Assembly: GCA_025612375.1 (NCBI GenBank)
Contig: JAAXKN010000001.1
Coordinates: forward strand, 228,669 to 292,668
Length of the DNA stretch: 64,000 nt
Reading direction: 5' to 3'
Source of the DNA: Ignavibacteria bacterium
GTDB lineage: Bacteria > Bacteroidota > Ignavibacteria > Ignavibacteriales > SURF-24
Shown one piece after another: positions 10,599 to 42,280 of the stretch. Made by a program: the position numbers and the translations under genes. The notes under the pieces were generated by a model. That model searched no databases. It saw only the letters and a list, made by a program, of their open reading frames with translations, and was not told the DNA's origin. How positions within the stretch are numbered: position 1 is the first letter of the stretch; every line of letters begins with the position of its first letter.

Positions 10599-11564
10599 CT
10601 ATGAGTTATTTATTGAAGTTTCAACAGATATATTACCATATCGATGTTGATAAAATGAGACACTAAAGACACCAATTAAGACTGCGAACCAAAGCGTAAC
10701 TGCCCTTACGATAAAGGTAGAAGATACGGCAATGTCTTTGGGTACTTTGTTTCTTATCAATAAAAATGTCAATGAGCCGTCTGTAACACCCAGACCCCCT
10801 GGCAGCATCGTTATGGCACCGGCAATAGTGGAGAATGTATAAACAAATGTAGGCCAGAGGATGTTAAAATGAAGTCCAAAATTAAAAAGAATTATGTAAT
10901 AACCCAAACACTCCAGGAACCAGGAAAAAAAGCTGATAACGACCATATAAGTCAATGGCCATGGGCGAAGCAGAAGGTAAACACTTTCGTACGCCGTACG
11001 GATCCTGGCTCCGTGTTTTTTAAGAACACCGACTCTTACAATTAAGTCAATCAGGTAAAAAGAAAGCCTCTTATGGCTTATTACAAGAGTAACCAGTATG
11101 AAAAATATTCCTGTGCCTATTACAATTATGCGCCCGTAATTAAAGACATAGGCGCCTATGAGGGCCAAAAGAACGAGTGAAATAAAATCGGTAATCCTTT
11201 CAACCATTACGATCGGCGCGGTTTTGCTGATAGGCTCGTTGGATACCTGCTTGACAAGGTAGGACTTTAAGAGTTCCCCCATCTTTCCGGGAGTAACGCT
11301 CATTATGAGTCCCGACATAAATATTGCAAAGGAATCCACCTTAGAGATCCTGACCTTCAGCACTTTAAGATAATAATCCCACTTATAAAATCTTGTTAAG
11401 TAGTTCACAAAAGTAAGCAGGAGCAGGAGGGGCAAAAGGAGCCAGTTGAATCTTGCGAATGCCGAGATCACGCTTCTGTAATCTGCATATATGGTAAATG
11501 CCAGGTAAAGGATTGCTGCAACGGCAAGGGAGCGGAATATGTTCTTTTTGACTTTTTCCAGCAC
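10599..11564 (-). CDS. LPG synthase TM/flippase-like (UPF0104) integral membrane protein
   Basis: The 321-aa protein has about eight hydrophobic helices and the family motif [16 protein letters not shown] near residue 262, plus the N-terminal [16 protein letters not shown]. Members of UPF0104 resemble the flippase half of MprF and are linked to lipid or glycolipid transport. No soluble aminoacyl-transferase domain is attached, so lysyl-phosphatidylglycerol synthesis is not indicated. The gene follows maf by 9 bp and precedes icd by 11 bp. Confidence 0.82.
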
Positions 11565-32181: not shown

Positions 32182-32652
32182 ATGAAGATAAAAATTAAAT
32201 ATTTTCTGTTTATTCTGATGTTAATATGGTTTACGGGAATTTTTCTTAATGTCCTTGTTCCCTGCGTTGAATTTCCAGCGGGAGTCTACCTCTTCAGTGA
32301 ACTCTGCTATAGTCACGTATGTCATCAGATAACGGAAAAGACAATTTTTATCCTTGGGCGGCCTCTTCTTGTATGTTCAAGGTGCTTCGGCATTTACGCG
32401 GGGCTTTTTGCAGCTTCTCTTTTTTCCCTCTTCATTTCAGTCAAAAGACCATTAAGAAAAAAGTACCTCATTTTTGCAGGCATTCCGATGCTGCTTGACG
32501 TAATGCTTTATTCTGTTAACATTTATAATTATTCCAAAATAACAGCTTTTCTTACCGGGCTTCTTTTAGGTTCAGTTGGTTTTTTTTATATTTTGGGAGC
32601 TTTTGAAAAATTTATTGCAGAATTAAAATCTCAGGATAGGAATCTTAATTGA
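32182..32652 (+). CDS. DUF2085 membrane protein
   Basis: The 156-aa protein has about four hydrophobic helices and the DUF2085 signature FSELCYSHVCHQITEKTIFI then GRPLLVCSRCFGIYAGLFAA. The conserved His and Cys residues (CHQ, CSRC) may bind a metal. No Shine-Dalgarno is visible; an A-rich leader precedes the ATG, which is common in this phylum. It is coupled to the next gene by a TTGA overlap. The function is unknown. Confidence 0.85.
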   Translation: MKIKIKYFLFILMLIWFTGIFLNVLVPCVEFPAGVYLFSELCYSHVCHQITEKTIFILGRPLLVCSRCFGIYAGLFAASLFSLFISVKRPLRKKYLIFAGIPMLLDVMLYSVNIYNYSKITAFLTGLLLGSVGFFYILGAFEKFIAELKSQDRNLN

Positions 32653-33161
32653 AAAAATATTTACCGGCTCTGGTATGCGGGTTTGCAGCAGGTGTTCTTA
32701 ATATTGTTCCTTTGGTTAGAAGTCTTTCATGCTGCCTGATTGTACCCGTGGCAGCTTTCTTTGCACTTGTGCTTCACCAGAAGGCCAATAGAAGTGACTC
32801 AGACATTAAAGCCTCCCTGGCCGTGCTTTTAGGCCTTTCGACAGGAATAATTGCCGCCTTTTTCGGCACTGCCTTCGATATGCTTATAGTTTATCTGACC
32901 AGGGAGATCTCAATTGCGGGATCACTGCCTGAACTTGAGAATATGCTGCAGTCGGTTTACCCTGCTGATCTTGCGCGCGAGGTTATGGACATAATGTACA
33001 GGGTTGTCGATGAAGTCAATAAGTACGGGTTCTCCATGCTATATACGTTTTCTGTTTTCATGAGCAGCCTGATCATAAATTCAATTTTCGGCATTATAGG
33101 CGGATTGATAGGCATGCAGATCATAAACAGGCGGAAGGACAGCGAGGATAATAATTTCTAA
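32649..33161 (+). CDS. Four-helix membrane protein, unknown
   Basis: The 170-aa protein has hydrophobic segments at about residues 5-20, 27-43, 56-85 and 130-160, separated by a soluble loop (PELENMLQSVYPADLAREVM). It resembles the DUF4199-type small membrane proteins of Bacteroidota in layout only. It starts with TTG, whose last two bases belong to the TGA stop of the DUF2085 gene. No function is proposed. Confidence 0.62.
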   Translation: MKKYLPALVCGFAAGVLNIVPLVRSLSCCLIVPVAAFFALVLHQKANRSDSDIKASLAVLLGLSTGIIAAFFGTAFDMLIVYLTREISIAGSLPELENMLQSVYPADLAREVMDIMYRVVDEVNKYGFSMLYTFSVFMSSLIINSIFGIIGGLIGMQIINRRKDSEDNNF

Positions 33162-33187
33162 TCACAAAAAAACAGATTTGATTAAAG

Positions 33188-33499
33188 ATGATAACAGCAT
33201 TTATATTTTTCGTTCACCTGGTTTTTGTTACGGTAATCTTCACAAAAAAGTGGCAGGATGAAGGCCTGTCAACTGCACTGTCCAATGTAGCTTTGATAGT
33301 AATACTTTTCAGCGTAGGCTGGGCAGTTACAGGGATGATTGCGCGTGCCCTCATGGAGTCGAAAGGCTTCGGGTTGTATTTTGACAGGGATACCTTTTCC
33401 TTATTCCTGTTAGCAATAGCAGAATTCTTTTTCTATAAACTCTACTACGGAGGGGATAAGGAAAAGGAAGTTAGCGAAGACGATACGGAAAAACAATAA
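33188..33499 (+). CDS. Small membrane protein, unknown
   Basis: A 103-aa protein with three hydrophobic segments (about 2-18, 32-52, 67-85) and an acidic C-terminal tail (KEKEVSEDDTEK). It is the third gene of a small membrane-protein run, 26 bp after the previous stop. Its 3' end overlaps the convergent tonB-like gene by 29 bp. I do not recognise the family. Confidence 0.6.
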   Translation: MITAFIFFVHLVFVTVIFTKKWQDEGLSTALSNVALIVILFSVGWAVTGMIARALMESKGFGLYFDRDTFSLFLLAIAEFFFYKLYYGGDKEKEVSEDDTEKQ

Positions 33500-34250
33500 C
33501 CGCAGTCTGTTCAAGCTGCTTCTGTCCCGGGGGCAGCGGTTCAAATCTCCATTGCCTGAGTGAATTTATAGCCGAATTTTCAAGTCTTGTATCGGCCTTC
33601 ATTAAAGGGATGATGGTTCCAACGGTGCCGTCGGGCAGTATAGTAAATTTCAGTTTAAGGTCAATTTCCTTTGAAACGCCTTCAGGATACCTGGGAAGCG
33701 AATAGCTGTAGATTTTCCTGTTACCCTTTCCTCCCCAGAAGATATCGTATCCGTCGCCGTTTGCGTCTCCCGATCCGTTACCGTTGCCTGAGCCGCGTCC
33801 GATGCCGTTTCCGATACCTGAGCCAAGAGGGTTGGTTCCGATTCCAGCTGCAGGATGGCCGTTGCCGGGCTTTACAACGTCCTTGGTTGTAGAACCGTTT
33901 CTTGCCGTAAAATTTTCATTTTTAGGTTTTTCAGTTGTTTTTGCAGGAATGCGGTCTTCAGATGTATTCTGTGTTTTATCGACTTTCGGGATATCTTCCT
34001 TTTTAGTCTCCTGCACCACGTCCTGCTGTCCCTGCAGGGGAAGGTCGCCTGCCTGCGGGTCCTCGGAAACCACTTCGGTCTCGCCGTTTCCTCCCCCTCC
34101 TGAGCCGCCCGGGGTACCGAAGCCGATCTCAACATATTCTGTAGGGGTATAGGTAAAGCCTGCCCTGAGGAAAAGGAATATGGCAAGCAGAACCCCGTGC
34201 ACACCGACTGACAACAAATAAGAAGTATTTTTTATTTTAGGAATAGTCAT
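33471..34250 (-). CDS. TonB-like energy transducer
   Basis: The 259-aa protein has one N-terminal helix (about 9-27), a periplasmic spacer rich in Gly/Asn/Pro/Lys (GNGIGRGSGNGNGSGDANGD), and a C-terminal TonB fold with YPEGVSKEIDLKLKFTILPD, GTVGTIIPLMKAD and LENSAINSLRQWRFEPLPPG. TonB proteins transmit proton-motive force to outer-membrane receptors. No exbB/exbD is in the window. It is the last gene of the DUF92-TPR-barrel-HU/SPOR run, 40 bp after the HU/SPOR gene. Confidence 0.85.
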   Translation of the reverse strand: MTIPKIKNTSYLLSVGVHGVLLAIFLFLRAGFTYTPTEYVEIGFGTPGGSGGGGNGETEVVSEDPQAGDLPLQGQQDVVQETKKEDIPKVDKTQNTSEDRIPAKTTEKPKNENFTARNGSTTKDVVKPGNGHPAAGIGTNPLGSGIGNGIGRGSGNGNGSGDANGDGYDIFWGGKGNRKIYSYSLPRYPEGVSKEIDLKLKFTILPDGTVGTIIPLMKADTRLENSAINSLRQWRFEPLPPGQKQLEQTAVIVFPYRLR

Positions 34251-34290
34251 CGTTTAACAATCTAATTTTCTAGTTTATAACGCTTAAGCT

Positions 34291-36528
34291 TTATCTTATC
34301 CTTTTAAGCGTATTTTCAGTTTCTTCCAGTGACGGGAAGTCACCTATTCTGACCCTGTACCATACTTTTGCCCCTTTGGGAGCATACTTTGTATAATAAG
34401 CGTCTAGCCCCCGGCTTTTGAAGTACTTTACCCTTTTTACGGCTTCAGAGGCTGACTGCCAGGAGGATTCCTGAATTGTATAGCGCCCTCTGCCGTCTGT
34501 AAAGATATCCTTTTTAATCAGCTTATCCTTTGTATCGCCTCTTGGCTGAATCTGCAGGTCGGATACGGTCTGGTTCTGTTTAGGGGCTGAGTTTTTATTT
34601 ACAAAATTATTATTCTTCTGAACCGGAGTATTAGTTTTCTGGACCGGTTTAGTAACCTGCGCATTTGTCTCAGGAAGCTTTGTTACTGTAGTCTGCTGCC
34701 TGTTTTCAGGCTTTTTCTCCTGACCGGTTTTTGGAGCAGTACTGGCGCCGTTTACAGTGTTGCCAGGAGTAGTTTTATTTTCAGCCAGAGGCTTATTTTC
34801 TGCAGGAGCAGTGTTCTGAGGTTTAGTATTATTCTCGTCTTCAGCATCTGCAGATTCGGTTTCATATTTCTGAAGTTCCTGTGGGCTTTCAGCGCTTCTT
34901 TTATAAACCGTTACAGGAACGCTGTAATCCCTTTCAATAATCTGGGGTTTTATGGCGGAAACCTTTTCGGCAGCCGTTTTTTTCTGGACAACGTCGGGAA
35001 GAAGCGGGTTACTTTTCCCCATGAAGAAGAAGTAATAAGCGCCTCCAAGCGTAACAAGCACAAGAGCGCCAAGTATCATCCAGAAGGTTCCGGGATACTT
35101 CACCTTGTGTGCGGCTTCATCCTCATCTTCAAGCATTTTATCGTCAGTTAGAGTTATGCCTGACATGCTGTCATTCTCAAGCTTAAGCGTGTCCAGTTCA
35201 TTTCCCTTTTCAGGCTCCTCTTCAGCCGGCTTATCTTCTGCGGACTCTTCCTCAATTAGTTCTTCTGTGAGCTCTTCTTCCACAGGTTTTTCTTCCTCTT
35301 CAGTTAAAGAGAAATCCTCGAACGGGTCAATTTCAAGTCCGGCATCCATTTCGGTAAGAAGTTCAAGCTTTTCGTCTATGTTCTCCGCCTGGTCGTCCAC
35401 AGGTGTTGGTTTATCAATTGCAAAAGGCTCTTCTTCAGTAAAAGCCTTTTCCCCGGCAAAAGCTGCATCTTCTGCAAAAGCTGCATCTTCTGCAAAGGTT
35501 TTATCTTCAGCAAAAGCCTTCTCACTTTCAGAAGCCTCTTCCTCATCGTCATCTATTTCCTTAAGGCTGAACCAGTCCTCGCCAAGCTCAGAGTTACCCT
35601 GCAATTCAGAGGGCTTTTCCGGAACTTCATCTACCGGAGTTTCATCCACTGGAATTTCATCCTCCGGAAGTTCATCTTCACCCAAAAGGTCCTTAAAGAG
35701 GTCGTCGGGATTCTTAAGACTTTCCCCGGGCATGATCTCATTCAAGACTTCTTCAGTCTCGCTCGGCTGGTCACTTTCGTCAGGCGTTTCATCTGTTTCC
35801 ATGAAAGTCTCATCCGCCGGGGTATCCAAAGCAGGTGTCTCGTCTGAGAAATCATCTGTAATGCTGGCTACAATTGCATCAAAATCCTCATCCGCCTTCT
35901 CATCAGAAGCTTCCGGGGTATTTTCAATTTCAGCAGTTTTTTCCTCTTCCCCGAATTCCCATGGTATGCTTTCATTATCTTCAGTTTCAGTTTCCTTTTC
36001 AGGCTCCGGAGCCAGGCCGAACTTATTTTCCTCGGGGATTGCTGAAAAATTATGGTCTATTTCAAAGTCGCTAAGGTTAACGGAATTTAAGAGCAGTCCG
36101 TCCACCCTGTCCTCAAAGTTCTTCTGCATCATGAGGTAGGATGAATGTACGAGAAATTCCTTTTTAGCCTGTTCTGTTACAGGTATTACGGGCTGGTCGA
36201 CGCTAAGGCTGAATACGTCGTCGTCAATTTCAGTCTTTTTCAGGTTACGAGGGTTAACCTGGAAGGCCAGGACCTCGTTTTTATCTTTTCTGTTGTATTT
36301 AAGCGGCACAAACAAGAGGTAAAAAGAGCCTTTTCCCTGGCTGCCCGATTCATCCAAAGTCCCCTTTTTCTTCAGCTGGAAAATTCCCACCTCAGGGATC
36401 TTTACCGATTCATTCACCTCAAGGGATTCTGCCACTTTCTGCAAAAAAACATCGAAAGCAACAGCCGTTTCTTTTCCCTGTGAGGAAAGCCGCGCGGAGA
36501 TAATATTTACTAATTCTTCTTTCTTCAT
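34291..36528 (-). CDS. HU-CCDC81-like/SPOR domain transmembrane protein
   Basis: The 745-aa protein joins an N-terminal HU/IHF-like region (about 1-70: MKKEELVNIISARLSSQGKE, IPEVGIFQLKKKG) with a second small domain (to about 150), an acidic low-complexity stretch (150-470), a transmembrane helix (about 480-500), a Thr/Asn/Gln/Pro-rich periplasmic linker, and a C-terminal SPOR domain (about 680-745) that should bind denuded septal peptidoglycan. HU-CCDC81 plus SPOR is an architecture known in Bacteroidota. It could link the nucleoid, or a cytosolic partner, to the division site. Its operon also encodes TonB and a barrel. Confidence 0.8.
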   Translation of the reverse strand: MKKEELVNIISARLSSQGKETAVAFDVFLQKVAESLEVNESVKIPEVGIFQLKKKGTLDESGSQGKGSFYLLFVPLKYNRKDKNEVLAFQVNPRNLKKTEIDDDVFSLSVDQPVIPVTEQAKKEFLVHSSYLMMQKNFEDRVDGLLLNSVNLSDFEIDHNFSAIPEENKFGLAPEPEKETETEDNESIPWEFGEEEKTAEIENTPEASDEKADEDFDAIVASITDDFSDETPALDTPADETFMETDETPDESDQPSETEEVLNEIMPGESLKNPDDLFKDLLGEDELPEDEIPVDETPVDEVPEKPSELQGNSELGEDWFSLKEIDDDEEEASESEKAFAEDKTFAEDAAFAEDAAFAGEKAFTEEEPFAIDKPTPVDDQAENIDEKLELLTEMDAGLEIDPFEDFSLTEEEEKPVEEELTEELIEEESAEDKPAEEEPEKGNELDTLKLENDSMSGITLTDDKMLEDEDEAAHKVKYPGTFWMILGALVLVTLGGAYYFFFMGKSNPLLPDVVQKKTAAEKVSAIKPQIIERDYSVPVTVYKRSAESPQELQKYETESADAEDENNTKPQNTAPAENKPLAENKTTPGNTVNGASTAPKTGQEKKPENRQQTTVTKLPETNAQVTKPVQKTNTPVQKNNNFVNKNSAPKQNQTVSDLQIQPRGDTKDKLIKKDIFTDGRGRYTIQESSWQSASEAVKRVKYFKSRGLDAYYTKYAPKGAKVWYRVRIGDFPSLEETENTLKRIR
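35456..35515. repeat. 18-bp in-frame minisatellite in the HU/SPOR gene
   Basis: Two exact 18-bp units (35456-35473, 35474-35491) plus two degenerate ones encode repeats of the type (K/A)xFAED. Gain or loss of units keeps the frame and changes the length of the acidic linker. Confidence 0.75.
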
Positions 36529-36633
36529 CTTTAATGGTATTTTTCAAAAAACTGGCTTAAATACACTCTGCGAATTAAAGTAAATTCGCACACAAAATCA
36601 AAAACACAGGCATTAAAACTTATTTTATCCCAT

Positions 36634-38268
36634 TTACCATCTATAGTCAATTCCGAAAACTATGTCAAAAGGCTTCTCTTTATAGCCGTACCAGTAGTAG
36701 TTATTCCTGTTAAAGAGATTAGAAACCTGGCCGAACAAGCTGAAGTTGTCCTGAAGCTTATAGCCCAGGCGGAGCGACATATCTGCAAAGGCCGGAATCT
36801 CCGTCCTGTTTTCAATATCAGCATAAGATGAAGAGTTCAGCTCAAGCGAAGCCTTGAGCTCCATCTGCGTAAAATCGTAGCCGTATGAAAGGCTTGAGCG
36901 GATGGCAGGTGTAAAGGGAATCTTGCTGCCGTGTGTGCTCTGGAAATCCTCCATCTCAAACTTCCCGTAGAATGAGCCGTAGGGGCCGGCATGGAAAAGC
37001 AGGTTTGCATAACCCATCAAGCGGTTAGCCTTTGTAGTTGAGACATAATACTTCCCTTTTGGGGGATAAACCGTACCCGGCAGGTCAATAATTCTGCTTT
37101 CGAGCTTGTTTGTCCTGAAGTACGCGTAGTTATCAAATCTTGAGTATTTTACCCCGCCTTCAATTTCGAAGTAAGTATCGAACTCATACTTAAGTGCAAC
37201 GTTAAGGTTAATGGGGTTTTTCTGGAATACGTGTCCAATGTTAAGGTTATAATATTTATTTATTCCTGCGAGGTCACCCGCCGAAAGGAAGTCTGCCTGC
37301 GGCACCAGTTCGCCCAGCAATGAGATCTGGTTGCTAATTTTGAGGAAAAAGAATCCCTGGGGCAGAAGCATCCAGCTGGAATCTGTAGTAGCATAATAAA
37401 GTCCGAAGCCGAACTGCCAGTCGCCAGTGGGTTTAAGTTTCAGCGAGGCTCTTGCGTCCATAAAGCCGACTGCACTTTTGCCGTTTATCTTTTCGTTCAT
37501 ATTCTGGTATTTAACGTTTGCATCTCCTGCGATCTTAAAGCCGTTGTAGCCCGTTTCAATGCCGCCTTTTAACCAGAGAAGGTTTTCGCCGAAATCCCTG
37601 TCGCTTAAGTAGAGCATATTATCAGTCACATCAAGCGAGATCTTAAAATAGTCGCTTGTAAGGTTGGACATTGACAACCTGAGGTTGCCCTTATGCATAT
37701 TTCTTGTCTCATCAGGATTATCTGAAGCGAAGAACTTATATGAGTTCATATTATAGCCTCCGCCCATCTTGTAGACTGTTCCCGGCAGGAAGCCCGAAGT
37801 ATCGCTTGAGAAGAATGATGTGGAGAGGTCGAGTCCCAGTCCGCTCTTATTTGAATTAGGAACGTATGCCCTGTCGTTGAGTGTCCACAAACGTCCGAAG
37901 AACGCCCCGCCGTCAAAGCCCGAGCCGTATGTGAGCTCCGCTCCGGGCAGTCTGTAGTATCCTGCGCCAAGGCTGAGAGCGCCTTTATATCTGGAGCCGG
38001 TGGAATTAAAGGTCACCTCTTTTTTCACGGGGTTGGATATTTCCGCAATCGGGAGGTCCTCGGGTGAATAGACAGGCTTAAAGAACTCCTCAGACATAAC
38101 CGGCACAAGTTCGGCCTTGGGTTTAGTTACAGTAGGAAGGCTTACCCTTTCCACTCCTGTTATAACAAATTCAGGCAGTTCAACGCTCTGTTGTTTTCTT
38201 TCTGTATTTTCCTGGGCAAGAAGAAGACAAGGGATAGCCCACGCGAGTATTATTATTTTCTTTATCAT
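36634..38268 (-). CDS. Outer-membrane beta-barrel, TonB-receptor-like without a plug
   Basis: The 544-aa protein has a signal peptide (MIKKIIILAWAIPCLLLAQ) and a TonB-box-like segment, VELPEFVITGVERVS. It then goes straight into barrel strands with alternating aromatic and polar residues (LSLGAGYYRLPGAELTYGSG), ending NLFNRNNYYWYG...FGIDYRW with a terminal Trp. No plug-domain sequence is visible between box and barrel. The ATG at 38268 is one base after the TGA of the TPR gene. It is probably a partner of the TPR protein; the cargo is unknown. Confidence 0.72.
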   Translation of the reverse strand: MIKKIIILAWAIPCLLLAQENTERKQQSVELPEFVITGVERVSLPTVTKPKAELVPVMSEEFFKPVYSPEDLPIAEISNPVKKEVTFNSTGSRYKGALSLGAGYYRLPGAELTYGSGFDGGAFFGRLWTLNDRAYVPNSNKSGLGLDLSTSFFSSDTSGFLPGTVYKMGGGYNMNSYKFFASDNPDETRNMHKGNLRLSMSNLTSDYFKISLDVTDNMLYLSDRDFGENLLWLKGGIETGYNGFKIAGDANVKYQNMNEKINGKSAVGFMDARASLKLKPTGDWQFGFGLYYATTDSSWMLLPQGFFFLKISNQISLLGELVPQADFLSAGDLAGINKYYNLNIGHVFQKNPINLNVALKYEFDTYFEIEGGVKYSRFDNYAYFRTNKLESRIIDLPGTVYPPKGKYYVSTTKANRLMGYANLLFHAGPYGSFYGKFEMEDFQSTHGSKIPFTPAIRSSLSYGYDFTQMELKASLELNSSSYADIENRTEIPAFADMSLRLGYKLQDNFSLFGQVSNLFNRNNYYWYGYKEKPFDIVFGIDYRW

Positions 38269-38269
38269 A

Positions 38270-41200
38270 TCAGTCCAGCGTCCGTAATTTGTTTTGTGCT
38301 TCGGCTCCGAATTTATCACCGCGATGGCGGCTTACAACCATCCGGTACATTTCCCTGGCCTTATTGTTGTCATTTTTCTTCTCATAGCATTCACCAAGCT
38401 TAAGGTAAGAGCTTGTAAGCCACTCGTCAAATCCGGCAAATGCAAATTTAACCCTTACAAGAGCCGAAATAGCGTCATCTAATTTATTCTGCTCAAGGAG
38501 TGAAACTCCGTAATAGTACTGTGACTTGGCTCCCAGTTCGTCTGTTCTTTCTGAAGAGAGTTCCTTCAGGAGCATATCCGTTGTTTCAAAGTTCTTCCTG
38601 GCAAGTTCAATGAGGGCAATTTCAAACTTTGCATCTGCGGCAAATAAGGTGCCTGAATAGTACTGTATGAGGTAATTAAAATCGTCATAAGCCTTCGGGA
38701 GGTCACCCTTTGCTATATATGCCATTGCCCTGTTGTACATTATCTCCGGTATCCTGGAGGATTCCGGGGGAAACTTGTCTATTGCCGTAGAGTAAATGCT
38801 TATTGCAGCGTCATAGTTCTTAAGATCCGAATGAATCTTCCCCATTTCGAGCACGGAGGCTATTCCGGGATCCGTCGTGAGGTAACTCTTAAAAACTATG
38901 TTAAAGTTATAAAGGGCCTCTTCATTCTGTTTTAATATTTCGGCACTTTTACCGATAGCGTAATATGCATCGGGCACAAGCGGGCTCTTGGGGTACTGGC
39001 TTACAAAGTCCTTGTAGCTCTTCTTGGCCATTTCATAGTTCCTGAGGTTGAAGTAGAGGTCCCCTTTTCTGAACATTATCTGGTCTATATTTGCGGCCTG
39101 CGGATTTTCAGCAGCATAGTTGTCTATGAAATTTACTGCCTGCTGCGGCTTGTCATCTGCCATATAGGCGTCTTTAATTCCCATTACGGCGTCAAAAGCG
39201 TAGCTGCTTGCAGGGTAGCCTGTTATAACCCTGTTGTAATAAACGATGCTTGAATCATAGTTGCCCATGTTGAAGTAAGCGTTACCGATAGAATTATATG
39301 TAATAGGCACAACAGAGGATGAAGGGTACCGGCTTAAGAGTGTATGATAGCTTGCAACAGCCTGGCGGTAGTTTCCCTTCTGGAAGAATATCCATCCGAT
39401 GATATACTGCGATTCAGCCACGTACTTTGAATCGGGAAACTTTTCCTGGAGACTTGAGAACTCCCTAATAGCTTCATTGGAGTTGCCTGCTTTATAGAGG
39501 GCCTGTGCATACTGATAATAAGCGTAGTCGCTGCTCATGCTGCTCTCGGCCAGGAATACTTCCTTATATATGCGGCTTGCTTCTGCAAATTTCTTCTCCC
39601 CGTAATAGCTGTCGGCCAGGCGGAGCTTGGCGTCATTGGAATTTGGGCTGTTCTTATATCTTCTTAAGTATTCGGAAAAATTATAAGATGCGTTAGGAAA
39701 TTCCTTCAGGTTAAAATATGTATAAGCCTTCCCGTAGAGCACCTGGGAAACAAGTTCTTTTTCCTTTTCGCCGGCTGCGTTATACTCCTTAAGGGCCTTC
39801 TTAAAATCCTTCTTAGCAAAATATGCCTCGGCCAGGTAGAAGTGGGTTTTGCCCGTTTCAAATGCAGGGGCTTCAGAAGCAAGTTTATTAAGCGAGCTTA
39901 CCGCCTCGTCTGTGCGGTTCAGGTAGTAGTCAGCTATGCCAAGGCCAAGCATGCTGCTATTTTTAAGTTCAGGGGCAAGCGATTGAAGGGCGAGTGCATC
40001 GCTGAAATATTTTTTTGCTGCAGGGTAGTCCTTTGCCTTAAGCCTGATCTCGCCAAGAACAGCAAGCGCACGGCCGCGCACGGTTTCATCGCTTGAGCCG
40101 GCGGCATCCTTCAGGTATTCTTCCGAGACCGTTTCCTTGTTGGTTTTGTATTTTACCACGCCGATCAGGTATCTTACCTGTGAAGCCAGTGAACTGGAGG
40201 GGTATCTTTTCAGAAAGTCGTCATAAATTTTTAGTGCCGCGTCATCTTTTCCGGCATAACGCCTGCTTTCAGCGCTCCAGAAAAGTGATTTGACGGAAAC
40301 GGAGTCACCTTCCCCTTTTCCGGTTAAAGATGAAAACAAGTTATATGATTCTTCATACTTTGCCTGCTGAAAATTGACCCAGGCAAGTCCGTATTTGACG
40401 TTCCTATCGACCTGAGTGTTAGGTTTCTCCCCTAAGATTTCATTATATGTTTCCCCCGCCTCTTTATATTCTCTCAGCCTGTAGTATGAGTTGGCAAGTA
40501 TATATTTGGCTTCAGTCTGGAGGCTGTCTGCAAGTTCCTTAATAAGAGGGTCGTTCAGTTCCAGTATTGCGTTATCATATTCCTTCAGTTCGAAGTAGCA
40601 GAGGCCGATTCTTATCTGTGCATGAGGAGCAAGCGGGCTTGTCTTATAGTAAGCAAGAAGAGTATCATAGTTGGCAACGGCCTGGCGGTAGTCGCCCTTC
40701 TTCTCATAAATGATGCCCAAAAGGTAAATGCTGTTAGGCTTATATTTGCTGTTGTTCCTGGCTACAATAGCGTCATCCAGATACTTAATAGCCTCATCGT
40801 ACCGCGCCTCCTGGCTGTAGGAGTCACCTGTGAGGTACATTGCAGAGCCGACGTATTCATTATAAGGGTAGTCTTCAATTAGTGTCTTAAAAGTCTCGCG
40901 TGCTTCAGCATATTCTTTCTTTCTGTAGTAGAGGGTTCCGAGCTTATAGAGCGCGTCTGCACGGAAGTTCGATTCTGTGTACTTGCCGGTAAAATAGCTG
41001 AATTCAGCGGTTGCAGCATCAACCTGGTTCAGTCTCAGGAGGCTTTCAGCCGAATAGTACTTTGCAGATGAAGAGAGTTCCTCGTCTACTCCTCTTTCTG
41101 CATAAAAGCCTTCAAAGAGCCTGTAGCTTTTTACATAGTCCCCCTTTTGGAATGCATCCATCGCGCGTGCATAGGCTGCGGGCAGGTTCACAAGAGGTGT

Positions 41201-41296
41201 GCTATGCTCAGGCAGAGGCTGTGTGTTGACGATCTGCGCACGGCTCAGGGCCGAAAGCGTTCCCAGAAATAAAAGTGTCAGTAATATATTTTTCAT
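38270..41296 (-). CDS. Large periplasmic TPR protein
   Basis: The 1008-aa protein has a signal peptide (MKNILLTLLFLGTLSALSRA) and about 25 TPR-like units across the rest (for example YVKSYRLFEGFYAERG, YKLGTLYYRKKEYAEARETF, NSIGNAYFNMGNYDSSIVYY). Some units are of the BamD/YbgF class. TPR superhelices serve as scaffolds for envelope complexes. It starts two bases after the DUF92 stop and is coupled to the barrel gene, which suggests one complex. Confidence 0.85.
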   Translation of the reverse strand: MKNILLTLLFLGTLSALSRAQIVNTQPLPEHSTPLVNLPAAYARAMDAFQKGDYVKSYRLFEGFYAERGVDEELSSSAKYYSAESLLRLNQVDAATAEFSYFTGKYTESNFRADALYKLGTLYYRKKEYAEARETFKTLIEDYPYNEYVGSAMYLTGDSYSQEARYDEAIKYLDDAIVARNNSKYKPNSIYLLGIIYEKKGDYRQAVANYDTLLAYYKTSPLAPHAQIRIGLCYFELKEYDNAILELNDPLIKELADSLQTEAKYILANSYYRLREYKEAGETYNEILGEKPNTQVDRNVKYGLAWVNFQQAKYEESYNLFSSLTGKGEGDSVSVKSLFWSAESRRYAGKDDAALKIYDDFLKRYPSSSLASQVRYLIGVVKYKTNKETVSEEYLKDAAGSSDETVRGRALAVLGEIRLKAKDYPAAKKYFSDALALQSLAPELKNSSMLGLGIADYYLNRTDEAVSSLNKLASEAPAFETGKTHFYLAEAYFAKKDFKKALKEYNAAGEKEKELVSQVLYGKAYTYFNLKEFPNASYNFSEYLRRYKNSPNSNDAKLRLADSYYGEKKFAEASRIYKEVFLAESSMSSDYAYYQYAQALYKAGNSNEAIREFSSLQEKFPDSKYVAESQYIIGWIFFQKGNYRQAVASYHTLLSRYPSSSVVPITYNSIGNAYFNMGNYDSSIVYYNRVITGYPASSYAFDAVMGIKDAYMADDKPQQAVNFIDNYAAENPQAANIDQIMFRKGDLYFNLRNYEMAKKSYKDFVSQYPKSPLVPDAYYAIGKSAEILKQNEEALYNFNIVFKSYLTTDPGIASVLEMGKIHSDLKNYDAAISIYSTAIDKFPPESSRIPEIMYNRAMAYIAKGDLPKAYDDFNYLIQYYSGTLFAADAKFEIALIELARKNFETTDMLLKELSSERTDELGAKSQYYYGVSLLEQNKLDDAISALVRVKFAFAGFDEWLTSSYLKLGECYEKKNDNNKAREMYRMVVSRHRGDKFGAEAQNKLRTLD

Positions 41297-41298
41297 TT

Positions 41299-42135
41299 TC
41301 AGTGTAATATATTCCGGAAAATAATTGCAAAAATTGCGCCGGTTATGCCGGCAGCAAGGTTAACTACGTCGTTTCCGATCCATAAAAATCCCTTTTTATG
41401 AATGGCCGGCCTCGTGCAGTGGAACTTCTTTTCAGTAAGTTTACCGCATTGTGTGCAGTAAAATTCTGCCTGAAAAGCAGCTCCCAGTATGCTGTCGGTT
41501 AAGCTTCCCAAGGTGCCGGAAAAAACAATAATACAAAAGTACAGAAATAATCCGTTATTTACCCACAATGCAGAGGAGATCGCAACCGTAAGCGCCCCGG
41601 CAACAGAGCCGAGAGTGCCTGCAAGAGATACGCCTCCTGAGCTCCCCTGTTCGCACATCTGCAGGTTCAGGATGTTATACGTCTTTGACCCTGCCCAGGT
41701 TCCAATTTCGGTACCCCACGTATCGGCGCAGACAGCAGCAAGCATTCCAATATAGGCCGTGTAAAACGCGCCCGAATTAAGGGAATAGTCCATTACTGCC
41801 AGAATTCCCCCCAGGCCGCCGTTTGAAATAACCTGGAGATAATCGCGCACACCGGTTTTTTCGAAGTAATTATCAACCCCGGGATTATGCTTTTTCCTTT
41901 GCTTTGAAAGAATGCTGGATGAAAGGAAGAAGTACAGAAGCGGCACTCCCCACTTCCAGCCTCCCAGTCCAAAAACTGGGACTGCGAGCAGAAAAGCAGC
42001 CCGGGAGCCGCTTTTAGTCAGGAACTTCAGCCTAAAGGACAAAACTGCTGCAATTGCGCCCAGAACAATAGCTAAAATTATCTTTTCCGACAAGCCAAAA
42101 TTAAGGGCGTTGAACTGAATATTCATAAAAGTCAT
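41299..42135 (-). CDS. DUF92 family membrane protein
   Basis: The 278-aa protein has about seven helices and the DUF92 signature with GSRAAFLLAVPVFGLGGWKW, ADTWGTEIG and GGVSLAGTLGSVAGAL. Plant VTE6, a phytyl-phosphate kinase, belongs to this family, but bacterial members are unassigned and often sit near isoprenoid genes, which is not the case here. A CxxC...C pair lies in the loop after helix five (YCTQCGKLTEKKFHC). The start may be at 42135 or three codons later. It is first in the envelope operon. Confidence 0.85.
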   Translation of the reverse strand: MTFMNIQFNALNFGLSEKIILAIVLGAIAAVLSFRLKFLTKSGSRAAFLLAVPVFGLGGWKWGVPLLYFFLSSSILSKQRKKHNPGVDNYFEKTGVRDYLQVISNGGLGGILAVMDYSLNSGAFYTAYIGMLAAVCADTWGTEIGTWAGSKTYNILNLQMCEQGSSGGVSLAGTLGSVAGALTVAISSALWVNNGLFLYFCIIVFSGTLGSLTDSILGAAFQAEFYCTQCGKLTEKKFHCTRPAIHKKGFLWIGNDVVNLAAGITGAIFAIIFRNILH

Positions 42136-42280
42136 CTATATATTATAATCCGGCAGAAATGCCTGTTTTTCAGTAAAAATTGTCTTATTGTATTAAAATT
42201 CCGGAATATATTACTTATGAGTTCTATTGTCAAGAAACAGAGGAAGAATTCACTTCATGCAGAAATTTCTTTTGAACTGC

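Follow-up and report, generated by a model that had tools for sequence, protein, structure and literature searches.

An operon-like unit of a giant TPR protein, a plugless transporter-type barrel and a TonB motor in Ignavibacteria and other Bacteroidota, a candidate for the work of Tol-Pal

Within a stretch of 64,000 nucleotides from an Ignavibacteria bacterium (assembly GCA_025612375.1, contig JAAXKN010000001.1, positions 228,669 to 292,668; hereafter the window), a locus on the minus strand encodes a giant tetratricopeptide repeat (TPR) protein, an outer-membrane barrel of the TonB-dependent-transporter type, a protein with HU and SPOR domains and a TonB-type force transducer. In relatives across the phylum Bacteroidota these four genes, joined by exbB and exbD, form one conserved operon-like unit, and they probably belong to one machine. 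TPR protein and barrel are found in genomes that lack canonical TolB and Pal, and on balance we read the machine as a trans-envelope tether driven by the proton-motive force, one that would work like Tol-Pal-CpoB without being a member of that system.

Gene order and linkage of the unit

In the window the unit comprises the genes for the TPR protein (38270..41296, minus strand as for all genes of the locus; 1008 residues, with matches to Pfam TPR families, TPR_6 at 231 bits), the barrel (36634..38268, ATG at 38268; 544 residues), the HU/SPOR protein (34291..36528; 745 residues, HU domain PF00216 at 28.3 bits and SPOR at 35.6 bits) and the TonB-type transducer (33471..34250; 259 residues, TonB_C at 28.2 bits against a cut-off of 24.6). 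Upstream lies a gene for a DUF92 membrane protein (41299..42135; Pfam DUF92, 192.5 bits), and the gaps along the series DUF92, TPR, barrel, HU/SPOR and TonB are 2, 1, 105 and 40 bp. A preliminary description of this DNA had given the same five genes, their common strand, the place of the locus and the spacings, and all of these were confirmed.

Searches with the TPR protein over 149 genomes of the class, and with a profile over 247 genomes of the phylum, were positive in 107 (almost always with a single match each) and 180, respectively. We collected 121 loci, namely the window, 80 class neighbourhoods from the 107 matching genomes, 39 phylum loci and a second locus of genome G003, and typed their neighbours with profiles, in part. 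Typed genes numbered 121 for the TPR protein, 112 for the barrel, 84 for HU/SPOR and 26 for DUF92, with the motor parts of Tol-Pal type, ExbB, ExbD and TonB, at 64, 63 and 81 (the window has TonB alone); the recurring order was (DUF92) TPR, barrel, HU/SPOR, ExbB, ExbD, TonB. The barrel gene adjoins the TPR gene in 110 of the 121 loci, most commonly with a 4-bp overlap (spacing of –4 bp). The locus is thus more than a chance grouping, given the frequency of the TPR gene in class and phylum and the adjacency of the barrel. Of 80 named loci of Ignavibacteria type, picked through a motif of the barrel and so informative for gene order and not for the motif, 79 gave at least one typed gene, and the same order recurred in them. 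Scattering of the genes in close relatives had been named in advance as what would speak against a common locus; the genes stay together. The five-gene grouping first described holds for barrel, TPR, HU/SPOR and TonB as one conserved locus and fails for DUF92, which we reject as a working part since its presence in 26 of 121 loci marks it as a lineage-local neighbour outside the conserved core; the relatives, moreover, carry ExbB and ExbD. In those relatives the two genes (about 215 and 134 residues) stand at the position of the 40-bp gap at 34251..34290, which holds neither in the window, a minority type of locus. Four genes of the MotA/ExbB family lie elsewhere in the same genome, two of them each forming part of an ExbB/ExbD pair and the other two within what looks by eye like a flagellar region.

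Under REARRANGEMENT, 11 of the 121 loci lacked a barrel beside the TPR gene. Seven of these (L116, L119, L120, L122, L123, L124 and L127) share another TPR neighbourhood, in which the gene after TPR is aroA by eye in L116 and L124 and a different open reading frame in L119. Genomes with such an unlinked TPR gene had a full-length barrel elsewhere in nine of nine cases (E-value 7e-51 or better), and in the main lineage of this kind the barrel is followed by HU/SPOR, ExbB, ExbD and TonB in seven of seven loci. There an open reading frame of 825–893 residues lies upstream of the barrel in six of the seven, and was FtsK in both cases tested; the gene following FtsK in L281 is LolA. Four genomes of intermediate status were counted neither as TPR-positive nor as TPR-lacking in our barrel search: G008 (full-length barrel, TPR gene cut by a contig end), G010 and G020 (TPR by profile, weak barrels of 136 and 93 bits) and G013 (neither clearly present). 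In the genomes tested, TPR protein and barrel tend to be present or absent together.

These linkage data bear on the alternative that the genes are conserved neighbours in a shared housekeeping region and act separately. A promoter-like site and a weak stem-loop in the gap between barrel and HU/SPOR would suit separate action, as would those Bacteroidia loci that have TPR and barrel alone; the persistence of gene order over the phylum argues otherwise, as does the retention of the barrel in the unlinked-TPR genomes, together there with HU/SPOR, ExbB, ExbD and TonB. We regard separate action as quite improbable.

Several surroundings of the unit were recorded in passing. Upstream of DUF92 in the window are a promoter-like site (42205..42233, minus strand; 11 of 12 positions match the consensus, a consensus match only) and a cation-efflux gene as neighbour. 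On the other side, three small membrane-protein genes on the plus strand (32182–33499; matching DUF2085 and, weakly, DUF4199 and DUF350) run towards the TonB gene, with an overlap of 29 bp at its end; the last of the three has relatives in 32 loci and the other two in 20 loci each. In many Ignavibacteriales loci (e.g., L032, 2245–4070) the gene clusters c10, c15 and c5, by eye an ECF (extracytoplasmic function) sigma factor, what is likely its kind of anti-sigma factor, and periplasmic proteins resembling Spy/CpxP, lie upstream of DUF92, a possible envelope-stress regulon. The gene for a small c-type cytochrome separates TPR from barrel in two groups of loci (L071 at 10904–11317, L076, L080–L082, L099, L105 and L107), the one tested (L071) matching CytoC_RC. 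A protein of 623–637 residues lies in or beside the operon in L086, L087, L089, L090, L091 and L094, with OmpA and barrel domains in the tested L086, and in the Bacteroidia-type loci L129, L130, L138, L141, L142 and L146 a gene of 428–453 codons follows TonB, the one tested (L129) having Mur-ligase domains and being probably FolC.

The barrel and its partner proteins

By Pfam, the window barrel matched TonB_dep_Rec_b-barrel at 21.5 bits, below the cut-off of 27, and gave no match to the plug domain PF07715; none of the 43 plug-domain matches in its genome, which mark a large set of TonB-dependent transporters, falls at this locus. An AlphaFold model from 79 sequences (mean pLDDT 84.7) predicts disorder at residues 21–91 and about 22 strands spanning residues 96 to 543. 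All 50 matches listed by Foldseek were TonB-dependent transporters, and VIA-align placed model residues 93–544 (36637..37992, minus strand) on BtuB 135–594 (Z 22.5) and on FhuA 159–714 (Z ~22), with 387 residues aligned to 3m8b at Z 22.5 and a root-mean-square deviation of 3.5. The structural alignment starts at the first barrel strand, and sequence matches to the closest solved relatives are likewise confined to the barrel (alignment A6 of this family holds 50 barrels, 25 from the class including the window and 25 of the 26 listed phylum barrels, L117 being left out). By these alignments, therefore, the whole barrel has been kept and the plug (~135–160 residues) replaced by a short flexible arm: as modelled, the protein has the complete barrel of a TonB-dependent transporter but no plug. 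The description of the barrel as plugless, made earlier from the DNA alone, is borne out both by Pfam and by the predicted structure.

The flexible arm carries, just after the signal peptide, the motif ELPEFVITG (barrel residues 30–38; 38155..38181, minus strand). A strict pattern for it was found in 59 of 85 class barrels, in none of the 85 within residues 131–260, and in 0.4% of shuffled N-termini; variants were seen by eye in 19 further class barrels, and seven (L050, L058, L059, L066, L067, L083 and L151) had no motif even by eye. With ELP[DE]FVIT as the pattern, 84,980 genomes were scanned and yielded 125 stretches, of which 102 lay in relatives of the window barrel. Motif counts in alignment A4, or in the 80 named loci, were rejected as circular, since the scan had itself selected on that pattern; similarly, the invariance of the motif in alignment A3 (barrels within the order and two of a sister family, without L050) is an illustration only, because that set was chosen with the motif already seen. 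A broader alignment (A1) took 56 diverse barrels minus L050 (without the motif), L058 (short N-terminus) and L088 (variant). Barrels of Bacteroidia type have other strand-like motifs at this position, such as ETVTVVKPY and AEIEIVKER. Canonical transporters of the window's genome carry strand-like boxes such as LQEIVVTG directly before the plug; these were found by reading the residues preceding the plug, a simple regular expression being too crude. The conserved motif occupies the position of a TonB box within the disordered N-terminus, and it resembles one.

Such a barrel invites the reading that the unit is a specialised TonB-driven transporter: the TPR protein would gate the plugless barrel in place of a plug, and a dedicated ExbB/ExbD/TonB set would power the passage of some large substrate, be it protein, glycan or lipid, through the outer membrane. 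The transporter fold and the TonB gene in the operon speak for this, as do the frequent adaptor roles of TPR proteins and the report that Oar, a canonical transporter, is required for PopC secretion in Myxococcus (PMC6434023). Among the neighbours, typed in part, we saw no recurring substrate enzyme or binding lipoprotein, and the SPOR/HU partner and the wide single-copy spread argue for a housekeeping task. The transport reading in the preliminary description becomes less favoured, and we hold a specialised transporter to be unlikely.

The TPR protein has a signal peptide followed by ~53 helices (~26–27 TPRs), is mostly represented by one clear ortholog per genome (alignment A2: 48 proteins, minus L032, L034, L037, L050 and L110), and is modelled as a single long all-helical superhelix (pLDDT 91). 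A structure search returned generic superhelices only; the Parabacteroides TPR protein 4r7s matched in fold at the C-terminus and was rejected as an ortholog by sequence. As to likeness to CpoB/YbgF, TIGR02795 scored 306.6 bits against a cut-off of 90.1, but this is summed over 11 stretches of a 1008-residue repeat protein, and the full CpoB model PRK10803 reached 102.7 vs. a cut-off of 383. The PorW/SprE model NF052312 scored 124.3 bits, and the solved relatives of the TPR profile include SprE; on these grounds the unit might be an accessory to type IX secretion and gliding, with its TPR protein a relative of PorW/SprE. The score reaches half the curated cut-off of 250 and is equalled or exceeded by those of other TPR models, and the neighbourhoods showed no type IX gene, though none was searched for as such; we give this idea the least credence of those considered.

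A giant TPR protein beside an outer-membrane barrel is the hallmark of the polysaccharide exporters BcsC, PelB, PgaA and AlgK-AlgE, in which the TPR scaffold accompanies the barrel, and a periplasmic TPR scaffold feeding polymer into the present barrel would resemble them. A few lineages do have downstream sugar genes by eye (UDP-glucose dehydrogenase, sugar transferase). The barrel here is of another fold, that of TonB-dependent transporters (Z ~22), which also supply all of its listed best matches; no synthase was seen among the recurring neighbours, typed in part, and TonB, ExbB and ExbD have no place in such exporters. An exporter of this kind is very unlikely.

In the HU/SPOR protein the HU domain (residues 1–55) is followed by an acidic linker, a transmembrane helix at ~481–503 (by eye) and SPOR at 680–745. 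It resembles HU-CCDC81/SPOR proteins (PF18174/PF18175 with PF05036) in having an N-terminal HU and a C-terminal SPOR domain, and differs in sharing its operon with genes for TonB motor and outer-membrane barrel and in matching PF00216 only, not the HU-CCDC81 models. Six Bacteroidia neighbours of this kind were tested: in L142 and L131, SPOR and the two HU-CCDC81 models all scored over cut-off; L146 matched the two HU-CCDC81 models, with SPOR just under cut-off; L137 and L140 matched HU-CCDC81 below cut-off with no SPOR match; and L130 matched SPOR only, below cut-off. The TonB protein has SVGVH at residues 14–18 within its transmembrane helix (by eye) and TonB_C at 198–255; SxxxH recurs in 57 of the 81 TonB proteins of the loci, and S-x3-H is part of a motif reported important for motor binding in TolA (PMC7391070). 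Barrel, TPR, HU/SPOR and TonB proteins together cover every layer of the envelope, as had been proposed from the outset.

Distribution relative to Tol-Pal

We searched for TolB and Pal with TIGR02800 and TIGR02802; in the TolB search the E. coli and Caulobacter controls scored over cut-off. No genome had either protein over cut-off among 61 of the class (that of the window included; 47 of the 61 TPR-positive) or among the 13 TPR-positive members of a further 40-genome phylum set, which makes none of 60 TPR-positive genomes (47 from the class, 13 from the phylum set); matches to the Pal model below cut-off, from OmpA-type domains, were present in 58 of the 61 class genomes. Family f31 has the reverse pattern. 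Its 17 genomes all carry Pal over cut-off and a full-length TolB, which passes the cut-off in 15 and narrowly misses it in two, and all lack a long TPR ortholog, having short TPR matches only, one kind of which lies close to Pal and TolB, as CpoB would; none of the 13 searched for the barrel had one of full length. The FMO protein is also present in 17 of 17, and we take it as a marker of green sulphur bacteria, hence f31 as green-sulphur-type. Among 23 TPR-lacking genomes (13 of f31, three of f8, five of f15, G152 and G314) no barrel match exceeded 94 bits, and no genome among those tested for both systems had both. The Tol-Pal of the FMO-bearing f31 fits the statement in a review that tol-pal occurs in Chlorobi (PMC7391070).

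The genomes with TPR protein and barrel, then, show no canonical TolB or Pal. We take this complementary distribution as the strongest hint of function, a contrast that comes mainly from one clade. The likeness to Tol-Pal-CpoB extends to the parts: an ExbBD/TolQR-type motor, a TonB/TolA-type transducer, a periplasmic TPR protein, and an outer-membrane-side partner offering a short N-terminal strand to the transducer, residues of TolB being reported to engage TolA in much the same way as a TonB box does TonB (PMC7391070). Unlike Tol-Pal-CpoB, the present unit is without TolB and Pal, its outer-membrane partner is a plugless transporter barrel, its TPR protein has ~1000 residues against a 28-kDa one, and it has an extra HU/SPOR protein. 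With ExbB-ExbD-TonB and TonB-dependent transporters it shares the transporter-type barrel, TonB_C and (in relatives) ExbB/ExbD; it differs in the missing plug, in the TPR and HU/SPOR partners and in its being a single-copy operon across most of the sampled phylum.

Several observations weigh against a Tol-Pal-like tether. The complementary pattern may reflect one evolutionary event, since it rests mainly on one clade, and ten genomes (G005, G055, G070, G063, G016, G026, G036, G046, G152 and G314, i.e., three of f8, five of f15 and the last two) show neither system. In two of these, G152 (94 bits) and G046 (69 bits), a weak match runs across the barrel domain and could represent diverged members; the other TPR-lacking genomes match it partly or not at all. 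The window has no ExbB/ExbD in the operon, and several Bacteroidia loci keep TPR and barrel alone. A TonB-box matrix trained on 24 canonical boxes of the same genome put the motif narrowly at the top in the window barrel (1.22 vs. 1.14), with p below 0.05 in no more than 17 of 85 class barrels and nine of 27 phylum ones, making the TonB-box identity statistically insecure; with scoring this weak, the identity is likely but unproved. Finally, PorE, a proposed outer membrane–peptidoglycan tether of Bacteroidetes, has itself been proposed as the Tol-Pal substitute (PMC12204202). Like the present unit it has been put forward to account for how Bacteroidetes manage without Tol-Pal, and it has a TPR domain; it differs in being a one-chain lipoprotein with CpoB-, TolB- and Pal-like domains, and the available text of that report does not mention the present operon.

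As a separate observation, the single-contig genome G152 bears FMO, and in it we found neither TolB/Pal nor a TPR ortholog, and the weak barrel match only. No description of the operon or experiment on it was found in the open-access literature searched, which is not proof of absence elsewhere. The Riemerella protein TbfA, a TonB-family member not linked to exbB-exbD, whose knockdown is reported to slow growth with hemin use unaffected (PMC5109031), could not be mapped to the present operon and serves as a lead only.

Proposed working and meaning

For a tether of the Tol-Pal kind we envisage that TonB, energised by ExbB/ExbD (in the window organism, by a pair encoded elsewhere), would grip the N-terminus of the barrel and thereby exert a pull on the outer membrane. 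On its periplasmic face the barrel may be docked by the long TPR superhelix, which would close an otherwise open pore and may couple the barrel to peptidoglycan work, as CpoB does with TolA. HU/SPOR would bring the complex to septal denuded glycan through its SPOR domain, while its cytosolic HU end could meet the nucleoid or divisome, the net effect being constriction or stability of the outer membrane at division. A link to division had been suggested earlier; SPOR, the adjacent ftsK in one lineage and the distribution complementary to Tol-Pal lend it indirect support, and the division role is still inferred. Extended to the phylum, the scheme becomes more tentative, and we put it forward at somewhat less than even confidence: most Bacteroidota may have replaced Tol-Pal, with the plugless barrel as an outer-membrane anchor under the pull of a dedicated ExbB-ExbD-TonB motor, the TPR protein as lumen closure and peptidoglycan link, and HU/SPOR as the tie to septum and nucleoid, while green sulphur bacteria kept Tol-Pal.

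The operon is a concrete candidate for the Tol-Pal job, with its TPR protein in 180 of the 247 sampled phylum genomes and a clear prediction attached to each part, and an open question is thereby made directly testable in standard laboratory species. If true, this reading would explain outer-membrane constriction in a phylum that includes dominant gut bacteria, and would mean that a transporter barrel has been reused as a mechanical anchor.

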